DNA from: an uncultured Anaeromyxobacter sp.
GTDB lineage: Bacteria > Myxococcota > Myxococcia > Myxococcales > Anaeromyxobacteraceae
DNA length: 45,721 bases
Direction of reading: 5' to 3'
Assembly: GCA_903874275.1 (NCBI GenBank)
Contig: CAIQRS010000270.1
Span: 1 to 45,721 of the forward strand
Every line of letters begins with the position of its first letter. Within the stretch, counting starts at the first letter, position 1. The notes beneath the pieces are model-generated. The model had not been told where the DNA came from and ran no database searches. It saw only the letters and a program-made list of their open reading frames with translations. This document shows positions 11,282 to 45,721 of the stretch, piece by piece. The translations under genes were made by a program, and so were the position numbers.

Positions 11282-12148
<867 letters not shown>

Positions 12149-12170
12149 AGCGACCCGAGAAGCGAGGCCC

Positions 12171-13637
12171 ATGAGCGGCAAGGGAGCGGCAGAGCACTTC
12201 ACGACGGCGCCCCGGGATCGGATCTCCTTCCCGCGGAAGCTGGCCTACGGGGCCGGGGCCTTCGTCAACAACCTGCTGGCGGCGGCCATCGGCGGGATGC
12301 TCATCGTGCTCAACCTGGGGCTGGGCATGAACCCGGCACTGGTGGGGCTGGTGGCGGCGCTGCCGCGCCTCCTCGACGCGCTCATCGACCCGGTCATGGG
12401 GTACGTCTCCGACCACACCCGCTCGAGGTGGGGACGCCGGCGCCCCTACATCTTCGTGGGGGCCATCGCCTCCGGAATCGTCTTCGCCCTGCTCTGGCAG
12501 GTTCCGAGGGGCCACAGCGAGAACTTCTACTTCTGGTTCTTCGTCGTCGGCTCCAACCTCTTCTACGTCGCCTACACGATCTTCGCCGCGCCCTGGGTCG
12601 CGCTGGGCTACGAGCTCACCCCCGACTATCACGAGCGCACCCGGCTCATGGGAGTGCAGAACTTCCTCGGGCAGATCGCCTACATCGTGTCGCCCTGGTT
12701 CCTCTGGTTCATGACCTACAAGACCTGGTTCAAGGATCAGGTCGAGGGGGCCTCGGCCCTGGCCATCGGCATCGGGGTGCTCGCAGCCTGCCTGGGCGTC
12801 CTGCCCGCCATCTTCCTCCGGGAGCGGTTCCAGCACGTGGCGGAGAAGGAGGGGGAGGAGCAGGCCGGGAAGGGCGGAGTCGGCGAGAGCATCATGGGGT
12901 TCCTGAGGGGGATGAAGTCGACCATCTCCTCCGGGCCCTTCCTGAAGCTCTGCGCGGCCACCTTCCTGGTCTTCAACGGCTTCATGCTGATCTCGTCGTT
13001 CCAGTTCTACGTCATCATCTACTACGTGTTCCGCGGCGATCAGGCGCGCGGGGCGGAATATGCGGGGTACGCCGGCACCCTCGGGGCCATCTCCACGTTC
13101 GCGGTGATCTTCTTCATCACCTGGCTCGGCACGAAGATCGGCAAGCGCAGGGCCTTCTTCGTCTCCACCGGGATCTCCATGCTCGGGTACGGGATGAAGT
13201 GGTTCGCCTACGACCCGAACCACCCCCTGCTCATCCTGCTCCCCACGCCGTTCCTGGCCTTCGGGCTGGGGGGGCTCTTCACGCTGATGGGCTCGATGAT
13301 CGCCGACGTCGTGGACGTGGACGAGATCCAGTCCCACCAGCGCCGCGAGGGAATGTTCGGCGCGGTCTTCTGGTGGGTCGTCAAGATGGGCATGGCGGCC
13401 GCGCTCGCCGGAGGAGGCTTCCTCCTCAACATGACCGGGTTCGACGTGGACCTGGGCGGGAACCAGGCCGAGCGGACCATCACCCTGATGCGGCTCTGCG
13501 ACGCGTTCATCCCGATGATCACGTCCGGCCTGGCGATCTGGGCCATCGCGACCTACCCGATCACCGAGGAGGCTGCCCACGAGGTGCGGGCGACCCTGGA
13601 GGCCCGACGAGGCACCGGGACGCCCGCCGCCGGATAG
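12171..13637 (+). CDS. GPH-family sugar:cation symporter (MFS)
   Basis: Inner-membrane transporter of 488 residues with about twelve hydrophobic segments. The family signature is in the loop after the second helix: DALIDPVMGYVSDHTRSRWG followed by RRRPYIF (about residues 69-95), diagnostic of the glycoside-pentoside-hexuronide group. Members import di- and oligosaccharides or glycosides with H+ or Na+. In a beta-1,3-glucan operon the probable cargo is laminaribiose, other short beta-glucosides or glucose; this is inferred. It lies between the laminarinase gene (22-base gap) and the ABC binding-protein gene (8-base gap), so the operon carries two import routes. GAGG precedes the ATG. Confidence 0.88.
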   Translation: MSGKGAAEHFTTAPRDRISFPRKLAYGAGAFVNNLLAAAIGGMLIVLNLGLGMNPALVGLVAALPRLLDALIDPVMGYVSDHTRSRWGRRRPYIFVGAIASGIVFALLWQVPRGHSENFYFWFFVVGSNLFYVAYTIFAAPWVALGYELTPDYHERTRLMGVQNFLGQIAYIVSPWFLWFMTYKTWFKDQVEGASALAIGIGVLAACLGVLPAIFLRERFQHVAEKEGEEQAGKGGVGESIMGFLRGMKSTISSGPFLKLCAATFLVFNGFMLISSFQFYVIIYYVFRGDQARGAEYAGYAGTLGAISTFAVIFFITWLGTKIGKRRAFFVSTGISMLGYGMKWFAYDPNHPLLILLPTPFLAFGLGGLFTLMGSMIADVVDVDEIQSHQRREGMFGAVFWWVVKMGMAAALAGGGFLLNMTGFDVDLGGNQAERTITLMRLCDAFIPMITSGLAIWAIATYPITEEAAHEVRATLEARRGTGTPAAG

Positions 13638-13645
13638 GGAGTTCC

Positions 13646-15295: not shown

Positions 15296-15305
15296 AAAGG
15301 GGCCG

Positions 15306-16286
15306 GTGCGCTTCATCCTCCAACGACTCGGCTTCTACCTGCTCGCGGCCTGGGCGGCGCTCACGCTCAACTTCTTCCTGCCGCGCCTCATGCCGGGCGA
15401 CCCCGCCACGGCGCTCTTCGCGCGATTCCGCGGCCAGCTCCGCCCGGAGGCCATGCAGGCGCTTCGCGAGGCCTTCGGGCTGACCCCGGAGCCGCTGCTG
15501 GGGCAATACATCACCTACCTCGGCCACGTGCTGCGGGGCGACTTCGGCGTCTCGGTGGCCTACTTCCCGTCCCCCGTCTCCACCATCATCGGCACGGGGC
15601 TCCTCTGGACGATGTTCCTGGCGGGGACGGCGGTGGCGGTGAGCTTCGTCCTCGGGACGCTGCTCGGCGTGGCCGCGGCCTGGTGGCGTGGTGGCTGGAT
15701 GGACACGCTGTTGCCCCCGGCGCTCGCGCTCCTGGGTGCGTTCCCCTACTTCTGGCTGGCCATGGTGGCCCTCTACGTCTTCGGCTTCCAGCTGGCCTGG
15801 TTCCCGCTCGGCCACGCCTACGCCGACGACCTGACGCCGGGGATGAACCTGCCGTTCCTCGCGAGCGTCCTCCGGCACGCGGCGCTCCCCGTCGGCACGG
15901 TGGTGGTGGCGACGCTGGGCGGATGGATGCTCTCCATGCGCAACACCATGGTGTCGGTCCTGGGCTCCGACTACGTGAACCTGGCACGGGCCAAGGGGCT
16001 GCCGCCCTCCCGCGTGGTACTCCGGTACGCGGCCCGCAACGCGCTCCTGCCCAGCGTCACCGGCTTCGGGATGGCGCTCGGTTTCGTCCTGGGCGGGTCG
16101 CTGCTCACCGAGATCGTCTTCTCCTACCCCGGGCAGGGCTACCTGCTCCTCCAGGCGGTCCAGAGCCAGGACTACCCGCTCATGCAGGGCATCTTCCTGG
16201 TCATCACCCTGGCGGTGCTGGGCGCCAACTGGCTCGTGGACATCGCCTACCTGTGGCTCGACCCGCGCACCCGGGAGGGTTCGTGA
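15306..16286 (+). CDS. ABC transporter permease, DppB/OppB type
   Basis: Inner-membrane permease of 326 residues. The GTG at 15306 follows GAAAGGGG and gives the standard N-terminus (FILQRLGFYLLAAWAALTL, then PRLMPGDPATALF). About six membrane segments are visible. The cytoplasmic EAA loop that contacts the ATPase is GSDYVNLARAKGLPPSRVV followed by RYAARNALLP. It forms a heterodimer with the next gene product to import the substrate of the upstream binding protein. The spacing of 10 bases from the binding-protein gene and the 4-base overlap with the next gene support co-translation. Confidence 0.92.
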   Translation: MRFILQRLGFYLLAAWAALTLNFFLPRLMPGDPATALFARFRGQLRPEAMQALREAFGLTPEPLLGQYITYLGHVLRGDFGVSVAYFPSPVSTIIGTGLLWTMFLAGTAVAVSFVLGTLLGVAAAWWRGGWMDTLLPPALALLGAFPYFWLAMVALYVFGFQLAWFPLGHAYADDLTPGMNLPFLASVLRHAALPVGTVVVATLGGWMLSMRNTMVSVLGSDYVNLARAKGLPPSRVVLRYAARNALLPSVTGFGMALGFVLGGSLLTEIVFSYPGQGYLLLQAVQSQDYPLMQGIFLVITLAVLGANWLVDIAYLWLDPRTREGS

Positions 16287-17224
16287 CCGCGCCGGCGAGC
16301 CGGCGGTCCACCGGGGCCAGGGCCTGGCTGGACGCCATCCGGCGCGACCGGAAGGCCAGCGTGGGTGCGCTGATCCTGGTCCTCTTCGCCCTGCTCGCCG
16401 TGGTCGGGCCGCTCCTCGTGGGCGACCCCACGGCGCTCGTGGCCGTTCCCCTCGAGCCTCCCTCCTCGGCGCACTGGCTCGGGACCACCGGCCAGGGGCA
16501 GGACGTGCTCGCGCAGACCGTGGTGGGGACGCGCGTCTCCCTGCTCATCGGCTTCGCGGTGGGGATCGTCGTCGTGCTGGTGGGCTCGCTCGTAGGGGTG
16601 ACGGCCGGCTACTTCGGCGGGCGCGTGGACGGGATGCTCTCCCTCCTCTTCAACGTCTTCCTGGTGATCCCCGGGCTGCCGCTGGCCATCGTCCTGGCGG
16701 CCTACCTGCCGTCCGGGCCGCTGACCGTGGCGGCGGTTCTGGTCTTCACCGGATGGGCCTGGAACGCCCGCGTGGTCCGCGGCCAGACCCTTTCCCTGCG
16801 CCGGCGCGACTTCGTGCTGGCGTCGGTGGTGAGCGGCGAGTCGAGCCTGCGCATCATCACCCGCGAGATCCTTCCCAACATGACCTCCCTGCTCGTGGCC
16901 CAGGTCATTGGCAGCAGCGTCTACGCCATCGGCGCGCTGGTGGGGCTCGAGTTCCTCGGGTTGGGCGACGTCTCGTCGGTCACCTGGGGGACCAACCTCT
17001 ACTGGGCCAGCAACGACTCGGCGCTCCTCACCGGCGCCTGGTGGACCTACGTCCCGACCGGCGTCTGCGTGGCGCTGGTGGGCTTCGGCCTGGTGATGCT
17101 CAACTCCGGCTTCGACGAGATCACCAACCCGCGCCTGCAGATGGAGCGCGCCTGGCGCGCGCACCTGGCGGCGGCGGGGCAGCCTGCGTCCCGGTCGACC
17201 CCGGTGGTGGTGCGAGATGGCTGA
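16283..17224 (+). CDS. ABC transporter permease, DppC/OppC type
   Basis: Second inner-membrane permease, 313 residues. The GTG at 16283 overlaps the preceding TGA (GTGA arrangement). The N-terminus has the usual cytoplasmic stretch and first helix (ASVGALILVLFALLAVVGPL), then a short periplasmic segment with SAHWLGTTGQGQDVLAQTV, a motif typical of DppC proteins. The EAA loop is RRRDFVLASVVSGESSLRII followed by REILPN. It pairs with the DppB-type permease. Its last codons overlap the start of the ATPase gene. Confidence 0.92.
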   Translation: MTAPASRRSTGARAWLDAIRRDRKASVGALILVLFALLAVVGPLLVGDPTALVAVPLEPPSSAHWLGTTGQGQDVLAQTVVGTRVSLLIGFAVGIVVVLVGSLVGVTAGYFGGRVDGMLSLLFNVFLVIPGLPLAIVLAAYLPSGPLTVAAVLVFTGWAWNARVVRGQTLSLRRRDFVLASVVSGESSLRIITREILPNMTSLLVAQVIGSSVYAIGALVGLEFLGLGDVSSVTWGTNLYWASNDSALLTGAWWTYVPTGVCVALVGFGLVMLNSGFDEITNPRLQMERAWRAHLAAAGQPASRSTPVVVRDG

Positions 17225-18182
17225 GCCGATCCTGTCGATCCGCGATCTCAGCGTCGACTACGTCTCGGCGGACGGGCCGGTTCGCGCCCTCGACCACGTC
17301 TCCCTGGACCTCATGCCCGGGGAGGTCGTCGGCGTCGCCGGCGAGTCGGGCTGCGGCAAGTCCACCATGGCCCAGGCAATCTTGAGGATCCTGCCGCCTC
17401 CGGCGGTGATCAGCGGCGGCCAGGTGCTCTTCGAGGGGCGCGACCTGCTCGCCATGGACGAGGGCGCTCTGCGCCGGATGCGCTGGGAGCGGATCGCCAT
17501 GGTCTTCCAGAGCGCCATGGACGCGCTCAACCCGGTGCTCACGGTGGGCGAGCAGATCGCCGACACCCTGCGGGCCCACGGTGCGGCCCCCTCCGGGCGT
17601 GCCGCGCGGGCGCGGGCCGCGGAGCTCCTCGGGACGGTGGGCATCCACGCCGACCGCCTGGAGAGCTTCCCGCACCAGCTCTCGGGCGGCATGCGCCAGC
17701 GGGTGGGCATCGCCATCGCGCTGGCGCTCGATCCCGCGCTCGTCATCCTCGACGAGCCCACCACCGCCCTCGACGTCATCGTGGAGCGGGAGATCCTGGA
17801 GGAGATCCAGGAGCTGCAGCGGAAGCGCGGGTTCGCCGTGATGTTCATCACGCACGACCTGACGCGGATGCTCCAGTTCGCGAACCGCGTGGCGATCTTC
17901 TACGCGGCGAGGCTGGTCGAGGTGGCTCCCGCGGGGGAGCTGCGGATGGCGGCGCGCCACCCCTACACGCAGGGGCTCCTGCGGGCCTTCCCGTCGGTGC
18001 ACGGCGGCGACGTCGACCTGTCGAGCATCCCCGGATCGCCGCCCAGCCTGCGCAGCCCGCCCAGGGGATGCCGCTTCCACCCCCGCTGCGCCGTCGCCGT
18101 CGACCTGTGCCGGGAGCGGGAGCCGGAGCTCGTCGCGCTCGGCCCCGCCCACGCAGCCGCCTGCCACCTGGTCACAGGCTGA
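17217..18182 (+). CDS. ABC transporter ATP-binding protein, DppD/OppD type
   Basis: Cytoplasmic ATPase of 321 residues. Walker A is GESGCGKST, the signature is LSGGMRQRVG, Walker B is LVILDEPTTALD and the switch histidine is in FITHDLTRM. The C-terminal extension has RGCRFHPRCAVAVDLC, the oligopeptide/dipeptide (oligo_HPY) region found in Dpp/Opp ATPases. It overlaps the permease gene by 8 bases and is the last gene of the plus-strand operon. The partner DppF-type ATPase is not next to it but on the opposite strand at 21351-22388. The 3' end overlaps by 11 bases the end of the convergent hydrolase-barrel gene. Confidence 0.93.
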   Translation: MAEPILSIRDLSVDYVSADGPVRALDHVSLDLMPGEVVGVAGESGCGKSTMAQAILRILPPPAVISGGQVLFEGRDLLAMDEGALRRMRWERIAMVFQSAMDALNPVLTVGEQIADTLRAHGAAPSGRAARARAAELLGTVGIHADRLESFPHQLSGGMRQRVGIAIALALDPALVILDEPTTALDVIVEREILEEIQELQRKRGFAVMFITHDLTRMLQFANRVAIFYAARLVEVAPAGELRMAARHPYTQGLLRAFPSVHGGDVDLSSIPGSPPSLRSPPRGCRFHPRCAVAVDLCREREPELVALGPAHAAACHLVTG

Positions 18183-21100
18183 CGTTCAGGTAGGTCCGGA
18201 TCTCCCACTCGTTGCCCAGCGCACCCGGGTCGGCCGGATTGGGAAGGTAGCGGTTGGAGAAGCCGTTCAGCGTCCGGTAGGTGCCGCGCAGGCCGATGCG
18301 GGTCTGCGGGGCGGCGATCCACATGGGGATTCCGAAGGAGTAGGAGAGGTCTCCCATGACCTGCACCGGGTAGGTGAGGTTGAAGTCCTTGTAGTAGTCG
18401 TAGGCGCCCCAGTCGTTGAACTTGAGGAAGGCCTGGAGGAGCACCGATCTCCAGGAGGCCTGCCCCTCCAGGCCGTAGCGGTTCACGATCCGTGTGCTGG
18501 GACCGACCGCCTGGGACTGGCCGCCATAGATCTTCCCGGCATACCGGACGTCGGCGTGGGGCGATCCCACCAGCCGCAGCGAGAGGTCCCAGACGTTGGC
18601 CGGCTCCCAGCCCTGGGCGAAGGGCACGCGTTCCAGGGTTCCGCCCGGGATGTAGGTGGACGCGTCGCTGGAGGTCGGCTGGTGACGGAAGGCGAAGTCG
18701 AGGCTCGCCGTCAGGTATCCGTCCTCCCGGGCTGCGTTGTCCCACTGCCACATCCAGGTGCCCGGCGTCGGGTCGAAGGCGATGAGCAGCTCGCCGCCGA
18801 TGGTCTCCCGGTTGCCGCGGACGGCGAAGGGGTCATCGAGGACGTTCCGGGCCGGGAGGCCGGAGTTGCTGGGTCCGGCCCCCTCGATGGGCTTCTGCCA
18901 GAGGAAGTTGGGAGCGAACTGGAACAGCCCCAGGTTGTAGGCGAGGCCGGTGAGGAAGTTGACCTGGTTGCCCGAGCCGGAGTCCTTGAGCGTCCACCCG
19001 GTGAAGGTGTGGTTCTTCTCCCATCCCGTGTCCGCCACGAGCCCCATGTAGGCCCCGGCGCCGTACCAGTGCCAGTTGCCGGACTCGATGGAGAGCTTGG
19101 CCTTGCCGCCGAAGGTGTCACCGACGGTGATCACCTTGGATGCCACCTGGCCTGCCACCTGGTAGCGCTGGCCGACCTTGCCGGTGCTGTTGGGGGCGAA
19201 GATGGTGGAGGCCCCGGACTGCACGACGCCGGCCTGGAGCCGGGCGATGCCCCACTGGGCGCTCAGGGAGAGCGCCGTCTGGCGCTGCTGCTGCTGGGGG
19301 ACGACCGACGAGGTGTTGAGGGCCGTGTTCACGCCCACCTGCTCCTGGTCCACGAAGGTGAGCTCGTAGTCGCCGAAGGCACGCGTGTACTTGAGGAAGA
19401 GGGCCGGGTTGGCGCCCCACCAGAGCTGCGGGCCGTAGGCCACCTTGAGGCCGTCCAGCGCCTTCTTGCCGCTCACCACGAAGCCGCTCGGCGCCGCCGC
19501 GTCGTAGATGTCGATGTCCCGCTGGTTCCAGGCCAGGTTGTTGGCGTAGTAGGCGTCCTGGTAGAGCGTGAAGAAGTCGCCCTCGTGGGACCAGGAGATG
19601 TGTCCCGTGCGGTAGAAGGCGTTCAGGTTGAACCAGGGCTCGTCCCAGTTGATCTTGGCGTCGTAGACCTGCACGCGCTCCAGGTCGTTCAGGGTGACCT
19701 TGGTGCCGGTCGAGGTGGTGAACTCTATCGGGCGTCCGCGCGACTGGTAGAAGATCTCGTCGATGGGGTTGAGGGCCACGCCGGCCAGCACGTTGACGGT
19801 GACGCTGGCGGTCAACTGCTTCACCGGCTGCACCTCGACGCCCACGAAGAAGGACTCCATGTTGCCGAACCCCAGGTACGAGGGGAGAGTCGCCTGGGGG
19901 TGCTGCTTGCTCGGGGTGGTGATGTTCGTGCCGCCGGTGCTGAAGGTGAAGAACTGGAACTCGGCCCTGCTGAGCCGGATGCGCTCGGAGAAGGCGGAGG
20001 CCAGGCTGGCCTGGTTGGCGCGGCCGGTGACCTCGAGCACGGCCGGCTCGATGGCGTTGAAGGTGGCGTGGATGGCGGCGAGGTCGGTGGTGGGCGCGTA
20101 GGGCGGGAGCTTGAAGGCCTCCCGCAGCGCGTAGTAGGCGGCGCGGGGATACAGGTTGAAGAGGCCTCGCTCGTCGGGAGGGCCCTTGGCGCAGACGCCG
20201 AACCACTCCTCGTTCATGTTGTTCTCGCCCTCGACGAAGTCGAACCTGTACCCGCCGTTCGCCCAGGAGGCGTTCGTGTCGTGGACGTCGAGGTTCTCGG
20301 TCTGCTTGTACTTCCACCAGCCGTCGCTCCACTGGAAGGTGAAGCCGCCGACGGCGTTGCCGACGCGCCCCTTGCCGGCCGACTGCTCGTAGATCTCCTG
20401 CCAGTTGGCGAGCAGGTAGATGGCCTGGTTGAGGCCGTCCTCGCGCATCTCCTTGGCGTTGAAGGCGTCGGAGCCGAACTCGGCGAACAGGACCGGGAGG
20501 CCGAGCCTTTCCTGGACGACCTGGAAGAGATCCCCGGCCGACTTGCCCCGGTAGACGTTGGTGCCGAAGACGTCGAGCCCCTTGCACTCCTGGGCGATGA
20601 GGTCGATGTACTGCACGTCACCGTTGGCCATCGTGATCAGGTGGTGGGGGTCGCGCGCCTTGGTCTCGCGGATGATCTCGCCGAAGAGGGAGTAGAGGTA
20701 GCGGGCGCGGCCGGCGTCCCGCTCGCCCACCGGCAGGTTCTCGATCTCGCTGGAGCGCCAGGAGAGGCCGTAGTTGTTCTCGTTGCCGAGCATCCACATG
20801 AGGACGCCGGGCGTGTTCTTGAGGTCGTCCACCATGGCCAGGAACTCCGCCTTGGCGGCGGCGCGGAAGCGCGGGTCCGAGTAGTCGACCTTGTTCTCCG
20901 GGATCCAGACGCCGTCCAAGGTGATGCCGTAGCGCCCCACCGCGTGGTTGACCACGCTGTAGATCCCGTACCGCTCGAAGATGTGCTTCACCCACTTCGC
21001 AGGGATGCCGTCGTAGACGCGGATGGCGTTCACGCCCATGGCCTTCAGGAGCGGCATCTCCCGGGCCAGCGCCGCCTCGATCATGTCGTCGGGCTGCTTC

Positions 21101-33347: not shown

Positions 33348-34637
33348 ATGCCCACGCTGCTCCCCCCCCGCGTCCGCAAGTTCCTCCGCTCGCCGCGGAC
33401 CATCGTGGTCGAGCTGCTCGGCATCGCCGCGGCCGGCGTGGCCGCGACCATCGTGGATCAGAACCCCACCGCCCTGCAGCGCGAGCGACTCGCCGAGGCC
33501 TCTCCGCTCCTGGCGAAGCTGGTGCACGCGCTGGCGCTCGACCACGTGTTCTCGGCGTGGTGGTTCCTCGGGCTCGTGGGGGTGGCCGCCGGCTCGCTGG
33601 CCATCGTCACGGTGGAGCAGTGGAAGCGGCTGCTCCGTGAATGGGGGCCTCCCGCCGAGACGGCCTTCCGAGGCGCACCCTACCGGCGCGCGATCCGGCG
33701 TCCCGTCGCCGGGGACGCCCCGGCCACGGCGCGCAGGGTCTCGGTGACCACGACCGGCCGCATGGGGTCGCTGGGCTCGCCGCTCTTCCACTCCGGCCTC
33801 CTGCTCGTCGCCGTCGCCGGGGTGGCCCGGATGCTCTGGGGCGCCGACGCCGCCCGCGAGGTCTGGGAGGGGGCGCGCATCACCGCCGCGCCCGAGGCCT
33901 TCGAGGTCCAGGACCACGGACCGCTGGCGGCGCCGGTCTCCCTTCCACAGCCGGTGAAGCTCGTCGAGCTTCTCCCCACCTACTACCCGTCGGGCACGCT
34001 GCTTGGCCTGTCGGCCCGGCTCGAGGTCGGCGAGAGGGATCCCCGCGCCGCAGCCATCGCTGTCAACGACCCGCTCGACCTGGGCGACACCCGCATCTAC
34101 CTCACCCAGAGCTTCGGGCCGGCGGCGGTCCTGGAGGTCCCCTCCGACGGGGCCCCGGTGGTCCGCGCGCTCCTCCTGGCCCCGGACGACATCGGCGGCT
34201 ACGAGTGGGTCGGTCCGCTCCCGGGGCGGCGAGAGCTCCGCGTCCGCGCGCCCCCCGTGAACGCCCAGTCGCGCCCGGCAGGCGTCGTCGACGTCCGCGT
34301 CCTTTCGGGCGACGCCCTGGTCGCGGCGGGCCGGATGGAGAAGGGGAGCGCGCTCCCCCTGCCGGACGGCACGTCCATCGTCCTGCGCGACGTCCGCTGG
34401 TGGGTGCGGGTGACCGCCTCGCGCGACCCGACCGCCTGGCCCATGTTCGCCGGGTTCGCCATCGCCATCGTGGGCGTGGTGCTCATGTTCGGGGTGGTGC
34501 GCGTGGACTCCCTGGTGGTCGCCGAGCCGGGCCAGGGGGGGGAGACGGTGACGCTCGCCATGCGGCCGCAGCGGCTGGCGCCGGTCTTCGCGGAGCGGTT
34601 CGAGCGGATGGTGGAGCGCGAGTCGTCCCGCCATTAG
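33348..34637 (+). CDS. Cytochrome c biogenesis protein ResB (system II)
   Basis: Inner-membrane protein of 429 residues, ResB/Ccs1 family. Membrane segments are at about residues 18-36, 70-89, 141-165 (GSPLFHSGLLLVAVAGVARM, with the conserved histidine) and 364-385 (MFAGFAIAIVGVVLMFGVV); a large periplasmic domain lies between the third and fourth. With CcsA it forms the system II haem exporter and cytochrome c synthase that attaches haem to CXXCH cysteines. CcsA follows after one intervening lipoprotein gene. The ATG at 33348 gives the normal N-terminus; the divergent molybdopterin enzyme starts 75 bases away. Its place near a giant cytochrome with many CX4CH motifs suggests a dedicated role, which is inference. 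Confidence 0.85.
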   Translation: MPTLLPPRVRKFLRSPRTIVVELLGIAAAGVAATIVDQNPTALQRERLAEASPLLAKLVHALALDHVFSAWWFLGLVGVAAGSLAIVTVEQWKRLLREWGPPAETAFRGAPYRRAIRRPVAGDAPATARRVSVTTTGRMGSLGSPLFHSGLLLVAVAGVARMLWGADAAREVWEGARITAAPEAFEVQDHGPLAAPVSLPQPVKLVELLPTYYPSGTLLGLSARLEVGERDPRAAAIAVNDPLDLGDTRIYLTQSFGPAAVLEVPSDGAPVVRALLLAPDDIGGYEWVGPLPGRRELRVRAPPVNAQSRPAGVVDVRVLSGDALVAAGRMEKGSALPLPDGTSIVLRDVRWWVRVTASRDPTAWPMFAGFAIAIVGVVLMFGVVRVDSLVVAEPGQGGETVTLAMRPQRLAPVFAERFERMVERESSRH

Positions 34638-34638
34638 G

Positions 34639-35190
34639 ATGACGCTCCCCGTGATCCCGTACCGAACCATCGCACCGATCCTCCTCGCCGCAGCGGGCGC
34701 CCTGGCCTGCCAGCGGAGCCCGACCGACGCCGAGGCCGAGGCCCTGGTCCGGCGCTACAACGCCCTGGTCTCCGACGCCTACCGGGCCGGTGACTTCCGC
34801 ATCGCCCAGCCGGTGGTCGGGGAGGACGAGGTCCGGCGCCTGGCGGCCCACATCGGCGTCCGGTCCGACCAGGGGATCACCCTGGACGCGCGGCTGGTCG
34901 AGATCGCCTTCAAGAAGTTCGAGCGCAAGGGCGAGGAGGCCACCGTCACCACCGACGAGCGCTGGCACTACCTCGACCGGCGCATCGGCTCCGGCGAGCA
35001 GGTGGGCCAGGAGTCCCGCGACCAGTACGTGATGCGCTACCACCTCAAGAAGGCGCCCAGCGGCTGGATCGTCGAGAGCACCGAGTTCGCCGAACGCCCC
35101 CAGGTCGGGCGCACCGAGCTGCCCGACCGCGCTCCCCCGGTGAACCTCCACGGATTCGAGACCGTCGTCCCCCCCGGAGGCCCGAAGTGA
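34639..35190 (+). CDS. Lipoprotein of unknown function in a cytochrome c maturation operon
   Basis: Predicted lipoprotein of 183 residues (signal TIAPILLAAAGALAC). The mature part is hydrophilic, begins EAEALVRRYNALVSDAYRAG and contains a stretch of strands (EATVTTDERWHYLDRRI; DQYVMRYHLKKAPSGWIVES) resembling an NTF2-like or ARC6/IMS-type fold; I cannot confirm either. It starts 1 base after the resB stop and overlaps the ccsA start by 4 bases, so it is made together with the two system II proteins and may help them, for example by presenting apocytochrome. No cysteine other than the lipidated one is present. Confidence 0.75.
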   Translation: MTLPVIPYRTIAPILLAAAGALACQRSPTDAEAEALVRRYNALVSDAYRAGDFRIAQPVVGEDEVRRLAAHIGVRSDQGITLDARLVEIAFKKFERKGEEATVTTDERWHYLDRRIGSGEQVGQESRDQYVMRYHLKKAPSGWIVESTEFAERPQVGRTELPDRAPPVNLHGFETVVPPGGPK

Positions 35191-36014
35191 CCCGCTTCGC
35201 ACTGGAAGTGACGCTGCTCTGGGCCGCGGTGGGGCTCTACGGGCTCTCCACGGCCTTCTTCGCGAACGCCGTGATCTTCGGCCACCCGCAGCGGGTCCGC
35301 TGGGGTCGCGGGCTGGCGCTCGCCGGGCTCGTGCCGCACGGGGCGGCGCTGGTCATCCGCTGGGTGGCGGTGGGGCACGGGCCCTACATTCTCAAGTACG
35401 AGGTCCTGGCCTCCAACGCATGGATCGCGGTGGCGGCGCTGGTCCTCTTCCTCTGGCGCCGGCCCACCTGGGGAGCGCTCGCGCTCGTCGTCCTGCCGCT
35501 CTCCATCCTGGCCATGGGCCTGGGGCTCTTCTCAAACTCGGAGGTCCGCGAGATCCCCCCCTCGCTTCGCTCCATCTGGCTCATCTTCCACATCACCTTC
35601 GCCAAGCTCTCGGCGGCGTCCTTCCTGCTCTCGCTCGCCGCGGCGGTGGTGATCCTGCTCCGTTCCCGGAAGACGGCGTGGAAGTGGATGGAGCGCGTCC
35701 CGCCGAGCGACGTGCTCGACGCCTACCAGGTCCGCTTCATCGGCTTCGGCTTCCTCTTCTGGACCATCACCATCGCGGCGGGCTCCATCTGGGCCCACCA
35801 GTCGTGGGGGCGCTACTGGGGCTGGGACGCCATCGAGACCTGGTCGCTCGTCTCCTGGCTGGCCTACGGGTCCGTGCTCCACGCCCGGCTCTTCTTCCGG
35901 CTGAGGCCCACCGCCACGGCCTGGTTCTCGGTGGGGGCCTTCGCGGTCTTCATCCTGGCGTTGCTCATCCTGCCGTTCATCATGCCGTCGCTCCACGCCG
36001 CCTACTTTCAGTGA
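35187..36014 (+). CDS. ccsA: Cytochrome c biogenesis protein CcsA/ResC (system II)
   Basis: Inner-membrane haem-handling protein of 275 residues with about eight hydrophobic segments. The tryptophan-rich WWD-type motif is WGRYWGWDAIETWSLVSW at about residues 205-222, followed by a conserved histidine in GSVLHARLFF; further family histidines are in IFHITFAKLS and MPSLHAAYF. It passes haem to the periplasm and, with ResB, ligates it to apocytochrome c. The GTG at 35187 overlaps the end of the lipoprotein gene by 4 bases. No CcdA or thioredoxin-like ResA gene is next to it. Whether it serves all cytochromes or only the neighbouring giant one is not shown by the sequence. Confidence 0.9.
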   Translation: MTRFALEVTLLWAAVGLYGLSTAFFANAVIFGHPQRVRWGRGLALAGLVPHGAALVIRWVAVGHGPYILKYEVLASNAWIAVAALVLFLWRRPTWGALALVVLPLSILAMGLGLFSNSEVREIPPSLRSIWLIFHITFAKLSAASFLLSLAAAVVILLRSRKTAWKWMERVPPSDVLDAYQVRFIGFGFLFWTITIAAGSIWAHQSWGRYWGWDAIETWSLVSWLAYGSVLHARLFFRLRPTATAWFSVGAFAVFILALLILPFIMPSLHAAYFQ

Positions 36015-36416: not shown

Positions 36417-36562
36417 ACGCGCAAGGGTTGCGAATGGCTTCCGGGACGCGCACAAAACTCGCTCGGCAATTAAAAATAGCCAATAATATCAGCGTACCAT
36501 GACTCGGTGACCATTGGCTTCCTTCGTGCTACTCAATGTGGACCGCTGAAGGAGGGTATTTG
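36417..36562 (+). promoter_or_regulatory. Leader region of the radical SAM gene
   Basis: This short gap is notably AT-rich for the window between about 36455 and 36500 (TTAAAAATAGCCAATAATAT), which suits a promoter. A small hairpin CGCAA-GGG-TTGCG (36420-36432) is repeated exactly in the next intergenic region at 38134-38146. AGGAGG just before 36563 is a strong ribosome-binding site and fixes the next start. I looked for a c-di-GMP riboswitch here and found none. Confidence 0.45.
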
Positions 36563-38065
36563 ATGCTCGGTCGAAAGCCCCGCGTTCTGCTCGTCACGTC
36601 GCCGTACCACGCCGGCGTGGTCGAGGCCGCCGGAACGTGGATGCCGCTCGCGATGGTCTACGTGGCGGGTGAGGCGCGGGCCGCCGGCGCCGAGGTCGAG
36701 ATCTACGACGCGATGTCCATGTTCGTCTCGCACGACGACATCGCGAAGAAGATCGCGGAGTTCAAGCCCGACATCGTCGGAACGAGCGCCATCACCGCCA
36801 CCGAGCCGGACGCCCGGGTCATCTGCGCCAACGCCAAGGCCTGGAACCCCGAGGTCCGCACGGTGGTGGGCAACGTGCATGCGACCTACTGCTGGGAGGA
36901 GATCCTCCGCGACGACCCCAGCGTGGACTTCGTGATCCGCGGGGAGGGAGAGCGGACCATCGCCGAGCTGGTCCAGGCCGTCGCGGCCGGGGACGGATAC
37001 GAGCGCATCGCCGGGCTCGCCTACCGGAAGGATGGCGTCCCCGTCTCCAACCCGCCCCGGATGCTCTGCTTCGACCTCGACCGGTTCCAGCCCGCCTTCG
37101 ACCTGGTGGACTGGCCGCTCTACTGGTACCGCCCCAGCCCCCAGGGGAAGCTCGCCATCGTGAGCTCGGCGCGCGGCTGCGCACAGCGCTGCTCCTTCTG
37201 CTCCCAGCAGAAGTTCTGGGGGCGCAGCTGGCGCGGGCGGGATCCGCTCAAGTTCGTGACCGAGCTGGAAATGCTGCGGGACAGGCACGGCGTGGCCGTG
37301 GCCATGCTCTCCGACGAGACCCCAACGACCGACCGGGCCCGCTGGGAGAAGGTCCTCGACCTGCTCATCGAGCGCCAGAGCGGGCTCGAGCTCCTCATGG
37401 AGACCCGGGTGGACGACATCCTTCGCGACCAGGACATCCTGGGGAAGTACGCCAAGGCCGGAGTCTCCCACGTCTACCTGGGGGTGGAGTCCACCTCGCA
37501 GGCCACGCTCGACCTGTACAAGAAGGACATCAAGGTCACCGAGTCGAAGAGGGCCATCGACCTCATCAACGAGTACGGCATGGTCTCCGAGACATCCTTC
37601 GTCCTGGGGACCCCGGAGGAGACCACCGCCTCGGTCCGGGAGACCGTCGAGCTCGCCAAGTGGTACGCGCCCGACATGGCTTTCTTCCTGGCTCTGACCC
37701 CTTGGCCCTACTCCGACATCGGCCCCGAGATGGAGAGCCGGCTCGTCACCAAGGACTACCGGCGCTACAACCTGGTCGAGCCGGTGATGAAGCCGGACAA
37801 CATGACCATCGCCGAGCTCCACGGCGAACTCCACCGGGCAACGGGCCACTTCTTCCACGACAAGTTCAAGAATCTCGGGAAATTAACCCCCGAGAAGCGC
37901 CGCTTCATGATCAAGGTGCTGAAGCTCCTCATCGAGAACAGCTACCTGGGCGACGAGATGAAGCGGATGGCGGGCCACGCCAGCATGCCGGACTCGGTGA
38001 AGGAGATGCTCCGGGACATCGGCATGGATGTTCCGGTTGGGCAGACTGCCACCACCCCTAGGTAG
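36563..38065 (+). CDS. B12-binding radical SAM protein (BchE/P-methylase type)
   Basis: Protein of 500 residues. Residues about 8-140 form a cobalamin-binding-like Rossmann domain (PRVLLVTSPYHAGVVEAAGT; VVGNVHATYCWEEIL). The radical SAM domain carries the [4Fe-4S] cysteines Cys206, Cys210 and Cys213 (ARGCAQRCSFCSQQ), and continues with HVYLGVESTSQATLDLYKKD and ETSFVLGTPEETTASV. Class B members methylate or rearrange unactivated carbons using methylcobalamin; the substrate here is unknown. The ATG at 36563 follows a strong AGGAGG. The gene precedes the giant cytochrome by 264 bases on the same strand. Two further neighbourhoods (cytochrome maturation and this gene) might act on haem or a cytochrome-associated compound, but that rests on position only. 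Confidence 0.85.
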   Translation: MLGRKPRVLLVTSPYHAGVVEAAGTWMPLAMVYVAGEARAAGAEVEIYDAMSMFVSHDDIAKKIAEFKPDIVGTSAITATEPDARVICANAKAWNPEVRTVVGNVHATYCWEEILRDDPSVDFVIRGEGERTIAELVQAVAAGDGYERIAGLAYRKDGVPVSNPPRMLCFDLDRFQPAFDLVDWPLYWYRPSPQGKLAIVSSARGCAQRCSFCSQQKFWGRSWRGRDPLKFVTELEMLRDRHGVAVAMLSDETPTTDRARWEKVLDLLIERQSGLELLMETRVDDILRDQDILGKYAKAGVSHVYLGVESTSQATLDLYKKDIKVTESKRAIDLINEYGMVSETSFVLGTPEETTASVRETVELAKWYAPDMAFFLALTPWPYSDIGPEMESRLVTKDYRRYNLVEPVMKPDNMTIAELHGELHRATGHFFHDKFKNLGKLTPEKRRFMIKVLKLLIENSYLGDEMKRMAGHASMPDSVKEMLRDIGMDVPVGQTATTPR

Positions 38066-38329: not shown

Positions 38330-41300
38330 ATGCGCCCCACTCGCACCGCAGCCCTGCTGGTCGCCGCCCTCTCCGTCGCCGGTTGTTTCAAGGGGGTCGA
38401 AAAGACTCCCGAGGCTGGCCAGAAGGGACAGTTCGGCGTCTTCTACGTCGTGAGCGTCTCCCGGCCGGTGGGCGGGACGGTCACCTCGACCACGGACGAC
38501 CAAATCAACTGCGGGACGGCCGGCTCCGGCAAGGACGCGTGCGTTGGCGTGTACGAGTGGAAGGTCGCGGCCAGCTTCAACGCGACCGCCGATGCCGGCC
38601 AGGTCTTCCAGAGCTGGGCGGGTGACTGCTCCGGCGTGGGCGTCTGCACGGTCGACACCGTCACCTACGGCTCCGACAAGACGGTCGTCGCGGTCTTCAA
38701 CCCCCCCGATCAGCTCGGCCACGCCCGCATCCCGAACCCCGCCCAGCACGGGCCGATGTTCTTCGACTACATCAAGAAGGTCCCGAACACCGCGCAGTGC
38801 CAGAAGTGCCACGGGGTGGACTACAAGGGACTCGCCAACGCCCCGTCCTGCGAGACCTGCCACGCCCAGGCCGGCTTCCCCGACTGGCTGAACAACTGCA
38901 CCTTCTGCCACGCCGACCCTCCGGCGGCCCCCCACGTCCAGAGCAACCTCTGCAGTTCCTGCCACGCGGGCTACGGAGACAAGACCGGCAGCGGCATCCA
39001 GGCCACCAACGCGGCCACCCACATGAACGGAAGGGCCGACGTCGCGGGCGCGGCCTGCACCATGTGCCACGGCACGCCCAACGTGAACGCCGCCCCGCCC
39101 ATCGACACCCAGGGGCGCAGCGGAACCACGCTCGTCTCGGTGGGCGCCCACCAGAAGCACCTCAACACCACGATGGCGAAGCCCGTGGCCTGTGGCGAGT
39201 GCCACGTCGTCCCCACGGACTCCGGCCACGCCACCCAGACGCCAGGCAACACGGTGGCCTTCGGAGCCCTCGCGAACCAGGGCACCTCCACCGTGTGGAA
39301 CTCCACCCAGGCCACCTGCGCCTCCAGCTACTGCCACGGCGGCACCACCGCGGTCTCCGGCGGCGTCCGCACCACCCCGACCTGGACGGTCGTGACCGGG
39401 ATGTACAGCGCCTGCACGGCCTGCCACGGCGCCCCGCCCCCGGCTCCGCACGCCCAGAACGCCGACTGCGGCAGTTGCCATACCGGCTACACGGTCACCT
39501 CCACCAACGCCGGCACCCACGTGAACGGCACGGTGGACGTGAGGCCGCTCACCTGCTCCTCGTGCCACGGCGACGCGCTCCGCACCGGAACCGACCCGAA
39601 CATCGCCGCCGCCCCGCCGCTGGGCACCAATGGCGAGACGCTGGCCACCTCGCCCGCCGTGGGCGCCCACATGGCGCACCTGAACCCCGGGACGCTCGCC
39701 AGGGCCTTCGCCTGCACCGACTGCCACAACCCGCCCACCTCCACGACCCACGCCACCGGCGCGGTCGAGTTCAGCTTCTCCGTCCTCGCCGGCGGCGCCA
39801 GCGTCGCCTACGACCCGGTGGCCCACACCTGCTCCAACACCTACTGCCACGGCAACTTCGCCCGCGGGAACCCGTCGAACTCGGTCGCGCTCTCCTGGAC
39901 GGGCGGAAGCGCTGCCGCCGCCTGCGGTTCTTGCCACGGAGCGCCCCCTCCGGCGCCGCACAGCCAGAGCACGGCCTGCGGGAGCTGCCACCCGGGCTAC
40001 ACCGCGACGTCGGTGAACCTCACCAGCCACGTGAACGGCTTCGTGGACGTCGTCGCCCTGAACTGCACCTCCTGCCACGGAACCGTCAACGTGAACCCGG
40101 CGCCCCCGCTCGACACCAGCGGGCTCCTGGCCACGACGCTGGTCTCTGTCGGCGCCCACCAGTCCCACGTGACCACCGGCCTCATGGCGGCGCCCATCGC
40201 CTGCACCGAGTGCCACGGCGCGGCCTCCGCGAGCTACGGCACGGCCCATGCCGACAACACCGTGCAGATCCAGTTTGGCTCGCGCTCGAACTCGGGCACG
40301 ACCACCGTGTGGAACGGGTCAACCTGCGCGTCCAGCTACTGCCACGGCGGAACCTTCCCGACCGCCGGTGGGACGGCGAAGACCCCGACCTGGACCCTGG
40401 TCGACGGAACCCAGAAGAGCTGCGGGAGCTGCCACGGCGCGCCGCCCCCGGGGCCGTCGCACCCGGCCAGCACGGCCTGCGGGAGCTGCCACCCCGGCTA
40501 CACCAGCAATGCCGTCGCAGCCGCCAGCCACATCAATGGCGTGGTCGACATCGTCCTCGGGCCGACCAGCTGCAACGTCTGCCACGGCGCCCCCCCCGCC
40601 ACGCCCAGCCACCGCACGGCAGGCGCGATCAGCACCTGCGCCACCTGCCACGACCAGACCGTGGACACGGCCGGAAACATCCTCACCACCGGCAAGCACA
40701 GCAACGGCGTCACCGACCTCAGCCTGGCCATGAACTGCGCGAAGTGCCACGGGACCGCCGGTCGCGCGCCCAACCCGACCGCCTTCACGGACAGCGTGGA
40801 GGGCGCGCCCCCGAAGGACCTCTCCGGGAACACCGCGCCCAGCGCACCGGGCGTCGGGGCCCACCTCGTTCACGTGAACGGCCTGCGGTCGAAGAACCTG
40901 CTCTGCAGCGAGTGCCACGACATCTCGTCTGTCTTCACTGGCCTCTACTCCCACGCCAGCGGCACGGTGGACATGGCCTGGGGCACGCTCGCCTCCGCGG
41001 GCGGGATCGCGCCCACCTACGTGCTCGGATCGGGCAGCTCCTGCAACGCCACCTACTGCCACGGCAACTTCGCGGGCGGAAAGGGCGCCGGCGCCTCGCC
41101 TGCCTGGACGCTCTCCGGGACCCTCGGATGCACCTCCTGCCACGACGCGCCCCCGGCGCTCTCGGCGGCTTCGCACCACCCGGCCAACACCAGCTGCGGG
41201 GCCTGCCACGGGGCGGGCTACTCGTCGGGCACGGTGGTCCAGGCCTCCCACGTGGACGGCAGGGTGACCCTCTCCCGCTCGGGCTGCACGCTCTGCCACG

Positions 41301-44300
41301 GCGACCTGACCGTGTCCGCGGTGGCGGCGACGTCCGCTGCGGCGGCGCCCGGATTCAACGCGACGGCAGCGGACACCACCGGCGCGACGGCGGCCACCTC
41401 GGCCGCGGTGGGCGCCCACGGAAAGCACCTGACCGCGACGAGCCTCCGGGCCGCGCCCATCGCCTGCGGTGACTGCCACACCGTCCCCGGCACGGGCGAC
41501 GTGACCCACGCCACGGGCGTCGGCTCCGGCGGCGCGCGCGCCTCGGTGGCCTTCTCCGGCCTCGCGACCGCCGGCGCGGTGACCACGGCGACCTACGCCG
41601 GAAGCACCACCGGCTCCGGCCTGAACGGCGCGGGCACCTGTTCGAACACCTACTGCCACGGCAACTTCCAGGGCGGCCTGAACCGGCCGATGAGCTGGAC
41701 CGGGGCCGCGACCGATGCGGCCTGCGGGACCTGCCACGGGGCGCCCCCGGCGTTCGTGCGGAACGGGACGACGCCGCACTCGACGAGCACCGACTGCGCG
41801 GCCTGCCACGGAGCGGGCTACGCGATCTCGGGGATCTCGGGCGCGGCCGCGGCGACGCACCTCGACGGGACCTTCCAGGCCCCCACCGGCGGACATGCGG
41901 CGGGGTGGGTGGACACGGTTCTCGCGAACCGGGGCGGACCGCACGCCATCTCCTTCAGCGAGGGCGGGACGAGCGCATGCACGAGCTGCCACGGTGCGGC
42001 GCTCGACGGCGTGGGCGGAAGCGGTCAGGCCTGCACGGCCTGCCACGACGGCGGGAGCCACGCGATCACGACGGCCGGCGGGCAGGTGGTCGGGCCCATC
42101 GTGGCGTTCCTGAGCGGGGCGAGCCCGAACTGCACGGCGTGTCACGGGACGGCGGGCGCGGTCGCGCCCGACCTGTCCGGCGCCAACACGCGCGCCGAGC
42201 CGCCGCTCGCCACCCGGCGGACCGCGGCCCGGCCCGACGCGGGGTCGCACGGCAAGCACAGCGTCCCGGCCACCGGGGCGTCGTCGATGGCGCCGCTTGC
42301 GTCGTTGACGTGCAGCCAGTGTCACGGGACGCCGACCAGCTGGCTCCATGCCGACGGCGCGGTCAACTTCGCCTGGGGCGGAGTCGCCTCGGCGGGCGGA
42401 GCGGTTCCGGCATTCACCCAGGGTACGAACGGCTGCGCCTCGACCTACTGCCACGGCAGCTTCAGGAACGGAAACGCCGGGAACACGCCCATCTGGGGTA
42501 GCCCGGCGACGGCGACCTGCGGCACCTGCCACGGGAGCGGAACCAGCCCGCTTCCCAGGACCACCGCCGCCGGGGGAACCCACCCGGTCATGTCGTCGGC
42601 CGTGGGGAACGGCGAGACCTGCGGCACCTGCCACGCGAGCTACACGGCGTCGTCGGTGAGCGCCGCGATCCACGTGGACGGCAAGATCGACGTGCTGGGA
42701 AGCACCTGCACGCTTTCGGGCGGCTGCACCATCAACAGCTGCACGGCCTGCCACGGGAACCCCCCGACCACCACCGCCATCGCGGGGACGGGGACGACCC
42801 ACCCGAATCGAACCGACTGCGGCACCTGCCATCCGGGCGCGGGCAGCGTCGGGGCCGGACAGGCCGCCGGCGCCGGCCACATGAATGGCCAGGTCGACCT
42901 CTCGACCATGACCTGCACGTCCTGCCACGGCACCTCGAGCCGGGTCGGCAGCGACGCCAACGCCGTCGCCTTCTCGGCCGCGCCCCCGGTCGATTCGTCA
43001 GGCGCCGCGACCGGAGCAAAGACCGGCGCGCACGCGAAGCACCTCTTCACCGGCGCCGCCGGCGGCCCGGGCTTCTCGGCCCAGGTTGCCTGCGCCGAGT
43101 GCCACGACGCGGCCATTCCCGTCACCCCGCTGCACGCCAACGGCCAGCCCAACGTGGCCTTCGGGCCGCTCGCCTCCACGGGCGCCGCCACCCCTGCCTA
43201 CGCTCCCGGCGCGACCGGAACCTGCTCCAACACCTACTGCCACGGCAACTTCCAGAACGGCGCCGGCGCCAACCCCATCGCCTGGACCGCCGCGGCCATG
43301 ACCTGCACCTCCTGCCACGGCACGCCTCCGGGCGGCACCCACCCGGCCGGTTCCACCCTCGCGACCTGCGGCAACTGCCACGGCAACTACAGCAACGCCG
43401 CGGCGGCCATCAACCCGGCCACCGGCATCATCGACCCCGCGGGCCACGTCAACGGGACGGTGGACCTGTCGAACATGTCCTGCACCTCCTGCCACGGCAC
43501 CCCGGGCCGCATCGGTGTCGCCGGCGCGGACCTCAACGTGGCGATCGCCCCTCCCGTCGTCGCCTCTGCCAACGGAGTCACCGGGGCCCACCTGGCGCAC
43601 GTGAACCAGGGCGCCGCTGCCCCCGCGCTGTCGAACGCGATGGCGTGCGTGAACTGCCACGTCCTCCCCACGAGCAGCGCGCACGCGGACGGCACGGTGG
43701 GCGTGGCCTACGCCAGCCTGGCGGTCGCCCAGGGCGCCGTGCCGGCGCCGTACGACAGCAACCTGCACACCTGCTCGAACACTTACTGCCACGGCAACTT
43801 CCCCGGCGGCAACCGGAGCCTGACGGCCCTCTCCTGGGGCATGGCGGGCAAGCTCGGATGCACGTCTTGCCACGGGGCTCCCCCGGCGATCGCGACGCAC
43901 CACCCGGCCAACACCGCCTGCGCGAACTGCCACTCGGGCTACACGGCGACGACCGTCACCGCCGCCACCCACGTGGACGGAACGGTGCAGAAGCCGGCCA
44001 ACGGCTGCACGGCGTGTCACGGCGTGCTCTCCGGCCAGGCAGGTGCGGCGGTGGCCAACACCAGCGCCACCGCTGCTCCTGGCTTCAACGCCAGCGCCGT
44101 CGATGCGACGGGCAGCTCGGCGACGACCTCCCGCGGTGTCGGCGCGCATTTCCGGCACCTGGCGCCGACGCTGCGTACGGCCGGACTCTCCTGCACGGAG
44201 TGCCACGGCGCAGTCCCGGCGGCGAACGACACCACCCACGCCAACGGCGTGGTGGCCGTCGCCTGGGGCACGCTGGCCTCGGCGAACGGCTCGGTCCCGG

Positions 44301-45721
44301 CGACCTCGGTCGGCGGCTCGACGCTCTCCTGCTCGGCGACCTGGTGCCACGGCGGCAACGCGGCGCTCTCCGGCGGCACGGCGACCACCATCGCCTGGAA
44401 CGCCAACGCCACGGTGAACTGCACCTCCTGTCACGGCAGCCCCCCGGCGGGGAACGGCCACCCGGCCAACGACAACTGCGCCACCTGCCACGGCACGGGC
44501 TACGCCAAGACGGGCGCCACCACCGGCACCATCACCGTCGGCGCGCTCGACACCCACATCAACGGGTCCGTCACGCTGCTCGCTGCCGCTGGTTGCGCCT
44601 CCTGCCACGGCGACACGGCGCGGGTCACGGTCGCCGGCGGCGACGGAAACGTCCCGTCGGCCCCGCCCATCGTCGCCTCGGCCACCGGCGTCGCGGGTGT
44701 GCACCTCGCCCACGTGAACCAGGGCGCCACCGCCCCGGCCTTCTCGAGCCCGATTGCCTGCTCGAACTGCCACACGGTGCCCGGAAGCACCTCCCATTCG
44801 GACGGGACCATCGGCGTGACCTACGCCGGTCTGGCGATCGCCCAGGGCGCCTTGCCGGCGCCGTACGACGGCGCTTCGCACACCTGCTCGAACACTTACT
44901 GCCACGGCAACTTCCCCGGCGGCAACCAGAGCGCCACGGCGATCTCCTGGTCCACGTCGGGCAAGCTCGGCTGCACGTCTTGCCACGGGGCCCCCCCGGC
45001 GATCGCGACGCACCACCCGGCCAACACGGCCTGCGCGAGTTGCCACACGGGCTACACGGCGACCACCGTCACGGCGGCGACGCACGTGGACGGAACGGTG
45101 CAGAAGCCCGCCAGCGGCTGCACCGCGTGCCACGGCGTGCTGGCCGGCCAGGCCGGCGCGGCGGTTGCCAACACCAGCGCCACCGCGGCTCCTGGTTTCA
45201 GCGCGGCTGCGGTGGACGCCTCCGGTAGCGCCCTCGCGACCTCCCGCGGCGTCGGTGCGCACCAGCGCCACCTGACGCCGACGCTGCGGTCGGTCGGGCT
45301 CTCCTGCACGGAGTGCCACGGCGCGATCCCGGCGGCGAACGACACGACCCACGCCAACGGCGCAGTCGCAGTCGCCTGGGGCACGCTGGCCTCGGCGAAC
45401 GGCTCGGTCCCGGGGACCTCGGTCGTCGGCTCCACGCTCTCCTGCTCGGCGAGCTGGTGCCACGGCGGCAACGCGGCGCTGTCCGGCGGCACGGCGACGA
45501 CCATCGCCTGGAACGCCAACGCCACGGTGAACTGTACCTCCTGCCACGGCAACCCGCCGGCAGGGCTCGGCCACCCGGCCAACGACAACTGCTCCGCCTG
45601 CCACGGCGCGGGCTACACCAAGACGGCCGCCACCACCGGAACGGTCGCCCTCGCCACCCACATCGACGGCGTCATCACGGTGACCACGGCGACCAGTTGC
45701 TCGTCCTGCCACGGCACCACC
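38330..45721 (+). CDS. Giant multihaem c-type cytochrome lipoprotein (CXXCH and CX4CH), partial
   Basis: Open from the ATG at 38330 to the window edge, 2464 codons without a stop, so the C-terminus is missing. Signal RTAALLVAALSVAGC predicts a lipoprotein. Residues about 35-125 form one InlB-like bacterial repeat (FQSWAGDCSGVGVCTVDTV). The rest is a chain of haem-type motifs: by hand I count about 55 CXXCH and 11 CX4CH (for example CSNTYCHGNF, CASSYCHGG, CSATWCHGG), each CX4CH being followed by WxxxxxxxxCxxCHG and PPxxPH-type spacing. This is the C4xC/C2xCH domain known from Geobacter. Such proteins conduct electrons at or beyond the outer membrane; haem binding by CX4CH is not proven in general. 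The maturation genes and radical SAM gene lie just upstream. In-frame checks at 38798, 39317, 41042 and 45698 all agree. Confidence 0.9.
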   Translation, partial: MRPTRTAALLVAALSVAGCFKGVEKTPEAGQKGQFGVFYVVSVSRPVGGTVTSTTDDQINCGTAGSGKDACVGVYEWKVAASFNATADAGQVFQSWAGDCSGVGVCTVDTVTYGSDKTVVAVFNPPDQLGHARIPNPAQHGPMFFDYIKKVPNTAQCQKCHGVDYKGLANAPSCETCHAQAGFPDWLNNCTFCHADPPAAPHVQSNLCSSCHAGYGDKTGSGIQATNAATHMNGRADVAGAACTMCHGTPNVNAAPPIDTQGRSGTTLVSVGAHQKHLNTTMAKPVACGECHVVPTDSGHATQTPGNTVAFGALANQGTSTVWNSTQATCASSYCHGGTTAVSGGVRTTPTWTVVTGMYSACTACHGAPPPAPHAQNADCGSCHTGYTVTSTNAGTHVNGTVDVRPLTCSSCHGDALRTGTDPNIAAAPPLGTNGETLATSPAVGAHMAHLNPGTLARAFACTDCHNPPTSTTHATGAVEFSFSVLAGGASVAYDPVAHTCSNTYCHGNFARGNPSNSVALSWTGGSAAAACGSCHGAPPPAPHSQSTACGSCHPGYTATSVNLTSHVNGFVDVVALNCTSCHGTVNVNPAPPLDTSGLLATTLVSVGAHQSHVTTGLMAAPIACTECHGAASASYGTAHADNTVQIQFGSRSNSGTTTVWNGSTCASSYCHGGTFPTAGGTAKTPTWTLVDGTQKSCGSCHGAPPPGPSHPASTACGSCHPGYTSNAVAAASHINGVVDIVLGPTSCNVCHGAPPATPSHRTAGAISTCATCHDQTVDTAGNILTTGKHSNGVTDLSLAMNCAKCHGTAGRAPNPTAFTDSVEGAPPKDLSGNTAPSAPGVGAHLVHVNGLRSKNLLCSECHDISSVFTGLYSHASGTVDMAWGTLASAGGIAPTYVLGSGSSCNATYCHGNFAGGKGAGASPAWTLSGTLGCTSCHDAPPALSAASHHPANTSCGACHGAGYSSGTVVQASHVDGRVTLSRSGCTLCHGDLTVSAVAATSAAAAPGFNATAADTTGATAATSAAVGAHGKHLTATSLRAAPIACGDCHTVPGTGDVTHATGVGSGGARASVAFSGLATAGAVTTATYAGSTTGSGLNGAGTCSNTYCHGNFQGGLNRPMSWTGAATDAACGTCHGAPPAFVRNGTTPHSTSTDCAACHGAGYAISGISGAAAATHLDGTFQAPTGGHAAGWVDTVLANRGGPHAISFSEGGTSACTSCHGAALDGVGGSGQACTACHDGGSHAITTAGGQVVGPIVAFLSGASPNCTACHGTAGAVAPDLSGANTRAEPPLATRRTAARPDAGSHGKHSVPATGASSMAPLASLTCSQCHGTPTSWLHADGAVNFAWGGVASAGGAVPAFTQGTNGCASTYCHGSFRNGNAGNTPIWGSPATATCGTCHGSGTSPLPRTTAAGGTHPVMSSAVGNGETCGTCHASYTASSVSAAIHVDGKIDVLGSTCTLSGGCTINSCTACHGNPPTTTAIAGTGTTHPNRTDCGTCHPGAGSVGAGQAAGAGHMNGQVDLSTMTCTSCHGTSSRVGSDANAVAFSAAPPVDSSGAATGAKTGAHAKHLFTGAAGGPGFSAQVACAECHDAAIPVTPLHANGQPNVAFGPLASTGAATPAYAPGATGTCSNTYCHGNFQNGAGANPIAWTAAAMTCTSCHGTPPGGTHPAGSTLATCGNCHGNYSNAAAAINPATGIIDPAGHVNGTVDLSNMSCTSCHGTPGRIGVAGADLNVAIAPPVVASANGVTGAHLAHVNQGAAAPALSNAMACVNCHVLPTSSAHADGTVGVAYASLAVAQGAVPAPYDSNLHTCSNTYCHGNFPGGNRSLTALSWGMAGKLGCTSCHGAPPAIATHHPANTACANCHSGYTATTVTAATHVDGTVQKPANGCTACHGVLSGQAGAAVANTSATAAPGFNASAVDATGSSATTSRGVGAHFRHLAPTLRTAGLSCTECHGAVPAANDTTHANGVVAVAWGTLASANGSVPATSVGGSTLSCSATWCHGGNAALSGGTATTIAWNANATVNCTSCHGSPPAGNGHPANDNCATCHGTGYAKTGATTGTITVGALDTHINGSVTLLAAAGCASCHGDTARVTVAGGDGNVPSAPPIVASATGVAGVHLAHVNQGATAPAFSSPIACSNCHTVPGSTSHSDGTIGVTYAGLAIAQGALPAPYDGASHTCSNTYCHGNFPGGNQSATAISWSTSGKLGCTSCHGAPPAIATHHPANTACASCHTGYTATTVTAATHVDGTVQKPASGCTACHGVLAGQAGAAVANTSATAAPGFSAAAVDASGSALATSRGVGAHQRHLTPTLRSVGLSCTECHGAIPAANDTTHANGAVAVAWGTLASANGSVPGTSVVGSTLSCSASWCHGGNAALSGGTATTIAWNANATVNCTSCHGNPPAGLGHPANDNCSACHGAGYTKTAATTGTVALATHIDGVITVTTATSCSSCHGTT
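43481..45721 (+). repeat. Tandem 1.1-kb repeats in the giant cytochrome gene
   Basis: A unit beginning at 43481 (CTSCH codons) recurs at 44594, an offset of 1113 bases (371 codons), and a third copy begins at 45698 after a 9-base shortening. The offset is exact at several points: GTGAACCAGG at 43601 and 44714, and ACTTACTGCC at 43781 and 44894. Long stretches, such as the one around 43771-43810, are identical between copies. Each unit encodes nine CXXCH/CX4CH motifs or so. Confidence 0.85.

Follow-up and report, generated by a model that had tools for sequence, protein, structure and literature searches.

The locus and its genes

The window analysed here is a 45,721-nt stretch of DNA from a bacterium of the family Anaeromyxobacteraceae; it makes up one complete contig (C270) of its source assembly, which comprises 5.07 Mb in 285 contigs. 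Its 3' end is occupied by a gene for a giant multihaem cytochrome (38330..45721, + strand), recognised by its open reading frame and by matches to TIGR01904. From the ATG at 38330, the frame runs for 2464 codons without a stop and is still open at the end of the contig. Because C270 is an entire contig, the gene is incomplete and lacks its 3' end, in agreement with the preliminary description of this DNA. That description had put the haem motifs at about 55 CXXCH and 11 CX4CH, and our recount gave exactly 55 CX2CH and 11 CX4CH, with no CX3CH. All 66 CH dipeptides of the protein lie within a haem motif. When its residues were shuffled (n=1000), the means were 0.43 CX2CH and 0.42 CX4CH motifs and the maxima 4 and 3, respectively, so that the 66 motifs observed compare with about 0.85 expected. 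No haem motifs were found in the other five frames of 38330-45721. The GC content at the third codon position was 0.94, equal to that of the upstream neighbour gene. With the signal peptide removed, the known portion of the protein has a mass of 238 kDa free of haem, or about 278 kDa with 66 haems.

The upstream genes lie on the same strand. The first codes for a ResB-like protein of System II cytochrome c maturation (33399..34637; PF05140, 105.6 bits, with a match in its own genome from 33399). It is followed by a gene for a small lipoprotein-like protein with no Pfam family (34639..35190), for which L033, an Anaeromyxobacter MAG, has a weak counterpart next to CcsA, and by a gene for a CcsA-like cytochrome c assembly protein, also of System II (35187..36014; PF01578, 113.7 bits). 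Directly upstream of the giant cytochrome is a gene for a B12-binding radical SAM protein (36536..38065; PF02310 and PF04055), which provides a synteny marker. Among the neighbours scanned, none was recognised as a gene for an outer-membrane conduit.

N-terminus and tandem modules

The frame opens with a lipoprotein signal peptide that extends to Cys19 (38330..38386). Its lipobox, LSVAGC, was identified by eye and is matched in the orthologue L034; sorting of the protein to the outer membrane is putative. An InlB-like domain follows at residues 65-124 (38522..38701; PF18998, 26.9 bits against a cut-off of 23.6), the only one above the cut-off, and then an N-terminal haem region which, from the motif list, contains six CX2CH motifs (residues 157-329; 38798..39316). 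The lipoprotein signal and InlB-like repeat noted previously are thus present, and the repeating blocks reported with them could be resolved into tandem modules.

The array consists of ten complete modules, each of which opens with CX4CH, followed by part of an eleventh. The simple form, with one CX4CH and four CX2CH over 165-199 residues, is that of seven of the ten, among them module 1 (39317..39829), module 2 (39830..40324), module 4 (41042..41638) and module 7 (43223..43771), with five haem motifs each. Modules 3 (40325..41041), 5 (41639..42433) and 6 (42434..43222) each carry two additional motifs, seven in all, and measure 239-265 residues. Modules 8 and 9 (43772..44884; ten haem motifs) recur as modules 10 and 11, of which the contig end leaves module 10 whole and module 11 with only its first four motifs (44885..45721); all lie on the + strand. 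The two pairs are copies of one ten-haem unit, with 84% amino acid identity, 87% nucleotide identity and a dN/dS of about 0.30. The module array of the giant cytochrome grows through duplication.

Conserved histidines and predicted haem ligation

The window and its relatives within the Anaeromyxobacteraceae yielded 81 five-motif modules, 77 of which were aligned; histidines outside the motifs played no part in choosing the modules. Five such non-motif His per module were 99-100% conserved across the 81 modules, and one Trp and a PP pair were conserved to the same degree. Over its full known length, the window protein contains 72 His outside the motifs, and its 66 motifs supply 66 proximal His, so that there is a candidate distal axial ligand for every haem, with five invariant ones in each five-haem module. 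Given five motif His and five conserved non-motif His per module, the sequence predicts five haems per module, each with bis-His ligation.

Giant multihaem cytochromes have so far been known chiefly by their motif counts. A pentahaem module with ten invariant His, present in 81 copies, is a small expressible unit, and its structure would show whether giant cytochromes are wires or stores. AlphaFold2 models made without haem were too weak for use (mean pLDDT 35 for two modules and 60 for one), and Foldseek searches with the module models gave no match.

Other cytochromes of the source genome and the missing 3' end

When the last 321 bases of the window were searched as DNA against the source genome, no other contig was found to continue the gene. 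For the tail of the L034 giant, the source genome gave no more than a weak match, on contig C17, and the ResB downstream of the L034 giant had no match there. C17 (L029, C17:1-6000) carries a 5'-open cytochrome tail with 12 CX2CH motifs, which aligns to the end of the 92-motif protein of L033 from residue 3129; the alignment of the window's end with that protein extends to residue 3198. C17 could be the tail of the window gene, which would then have a total of about 80 motifs, or it could instead complete a second truncated giant cytochrome gene of this genome, the one on C174 (L021; 19 motifs). We left C17 unjoined, and the count of 66 refers to the window only. C174 and C17 also end inside giant cytochrome genes; evidently, the module repeats break the assembly.

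The N-terminus of the window protein is common to six shorter genes of the source genome, four on C105 and one each on C226 and C85. On C105 (L030, C105:18000-32525), four adjoining paralogues code for proteins of 558-705 aa, each with 10-12 motifs and a lipoprotein and InlB-like N-terminus. At another locus of the source genome (L031, 8423-11014, + strand), 10 haem motifs occur together with collagen-like GTN repeats near the N-terminus.

Relation to known families and published giant cytochromes

The giant cytochrome gave 11 domain matches to TIGR01904 (319 bits against a cut-off of 27) and matched PF09698 with 81.7 bits (cut-off 21.7). On these sequence profiles, it is assigned to the CxxxxCH/CxxCH domain c-type cytochromes (TIGR01904 / PF09698, GSu_C4xC__C2xCH). 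It differs from the family as described in that the domain sits inside a larger, mostly five-haem module, and in that at least 10 copies of this module follow an N-terminus of lipoprotein and InlB-like type. The TIGR01904 domain was present in all 24 of the Anaeromyxobacteraceae genomes examined.

The OmcA/MtrC decahaem family (TIGR03507) resembles the giant cytochrome in being multihaem and in the proposed surface location, but the match was weak (22.6 bits against a cut-off of 209.3) and this assignment was rejected. Sequence matches in the PDB, searched with the single sequence or with a module profile, did not include OmcS, OmcE or OmcZ; those obtained were weak (best NrfB, E 4.7e-4), looked motif-driven and were set aside. 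OmcS, OmcE and OmcZ share with the giant cytochrome bis-His haems, predicted here, and a role in extracellular electron transfer, proposed here. Their filaments, however, are polymers of small subunits that each hold few haems, whereas the giant cytochrome repeats its modules within one chain.

Cytochromes with 69 and 113 haems have been described in the Methanoperedenaceae (PMC7082337). These archaeal giants are also single polypeptides with very many motifs, and we liken them to the window protein by motif count. On electrodes and iron oxides, Desulfuromonas acetexigens expresses a cytochrome with 86 motifs, a number termed the highest for electroactive bacteria (PMC12133095). This giant bacterial multihaem cytochrome, expressed under extracellular electron transfer, is likewise compared here by motif count alone. 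The relative in L033 has a complete frame of 3902 aa (9101-20806, + strand) with 77 CX2CH and 15 CX4CH motifs; its total of 92 exceeds the bacterial 86 of the open-access literature and falls below the archaeal 113, although counting rules may differ. The earlier view that the window protein would rank with the most haem-rich proteins known stands, with at least 66 motifs, but the protein is not unique, given the published 69, 86 and 113 and the 92 of L033. We conclude that it is a new and strong representative of a class of proteins that is rare but had been described before.

System II maturation genes

Matches to ResB were found on three contigs of the source genome and matches to CcsA on four, so that a maturation system for a multihaem c-type cytochrome is encoded in the same genome. 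In L033 and L034, the giant genes are likewise accompanied by a ResB/CcsA pair, on their 3' side, and L124 and L037 have a CcsA homologue near their giants, whereas at the other giant loci examined no CcsA match was found within the stretches searched. Because CcsA matches accompany some giant loci and not others, this arrangement is only suggestive of an upstream ResB/CcsA pair dedicated to the maturation of the giant cytochrome.

Proposed role of the giant cytochrome

We propose that the window gene probably codes for a giant outer-surface lipoprotein cytochrome, built as beads on a string, that serves as a multi-electron relay and reservoir to extracellular acceptors. The protein would consist of a lipid anchor, the InlB-like domain, the six-haem region and then the tandem modules. 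Each module would bind five haems covalently, at one CX4CH and four CX2CH sites, and each haem would be held by the His of its motif and by one of the five conserved distal His. Haem would be attached outside the cytoplasmic membrane by System II ResB/CcsA, plausibly the pair encoded upstream, and the protein, once placed on the surface, would relay and store electrons between outer-membrane conduits and acceptors such as Fe(III) minerals. Haem attachment, surface location, the electron-transfer role and the direction of electron flow are what we infer here from the features described above.

It had been suggested in the preliminary description that such a protein could form a long conductive chain. 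A chain of this kind is plausible, since the protein has 72 His besides the 66 proximal ones and each five-haem module contains five invariant His outside its motifs. In OmcS, six haems span about 4.7 nm; if the 66 haems were arranged in single file at similar spacing, we estimate that they would extend over roughly 50 nm. A more specific form of this idea is that the protein acts as a single-polypeptide wire, in which interchangeable pentahaem beads form a continuous bis-His chain over tens of nanometres without polymerisation, loaded by a dedicated CX4CH-accepting ResB/CcsA. We consider this possible but doubtful. If it were true, beads would be gained and lost by tandem duplication, and the length of the wire would evolve via module number.

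The same features could be read as those of a capacitor, in which haem clusters hold electrons when an outside acceptor is absent and long-range conduction is not the task of the protein. Earlier work has suggested that large multihaem cytochromes may store charge (PMC7399161; PMC12133095), and the very large number of haems in one chain, as well as the division into separable five-haem beads, three of them with extra motifs, would suit a store. The strict repetition of the module, however, also suits an ordered chain, and sequence cannot separate a store from a relay; we regard a protein made mainly for storage as unlikely.

It is also conceivable that the giant is a precursor, cleaved after export into several smaller multihaem cytochromes. 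For this there is a documented precedent in OmcZ, which is trimmed from 50 to 30 kDa through processing by OzpA (PMC9473688), and the stand-alone proteins of the source genome with 10-12 motifs and the same N-terminus would be in keeping with it. Against it, no cleavage signal was identified in the giant cytochrome, and because the sole lipoprotein signal is N-terminal, the cut pieces would lose their anchor, which makes a precursor quite improbable.

The orthologue in L034 and the integrity of the frame

L034, an Anaeromyxobacteraceae MAG, contains a syntenic orthologue whose frame is complete at 2721 aa and holds 58 motifs, and whose N-terminus matches that of the window protein; the radical SAM gene upstream is 94-95% identical between the two. 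An alignment of the two cytochromes over 1134 residues shows 74% identity and a dN/dS of about 0.34; every one of the 65 Cys and all but one of the 61 His are conserved. The giant cytochrome is thus under purifying selection. Beyond residue ~1150, the two arrays no longer match module for module, so that module content turns over. That homologous giant cytochromes differ in motif number has been noted earlier (PMC7399161).

Giant frames were also found in single-contig genomes, namely G006 (2652 aa, 49 motifs) and G009 (2092 aa, 58 motifs); single-contig family genomes with such giants of 49-58 motifs may include cultured, genetically tractable strains. An artefact, in which misassembled repeats have expanded, collapsed or chimerised the frame, or in which the gene is decaying, is extremely unlikely: C270, C174 and C17 all end inside such modules, so that repeats do disturb this assembly, but the module copies are not identical to one another, collinearity and conservation with L034 extend over the first 1134 residues, and complete giant frames exist in other MAGs and in the single-contig genomes. 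A frameshift, the concern raised when the gene was first described, is likewise unlikely in view of the L034 orthologue and the conservation.

Further large frames differ in composition or architecture. In a Spirochaetia MAG (L043, 8255-16672, + strand), CX4CH accounts for an unusually large part of the motifs in a frame of 2806 aa (27, next to 50 CX2CH). Another, in L126 (1645-13260, - strand), has 3872 aa and 59 haem motifs, with a different, motif-free N-terminal region.
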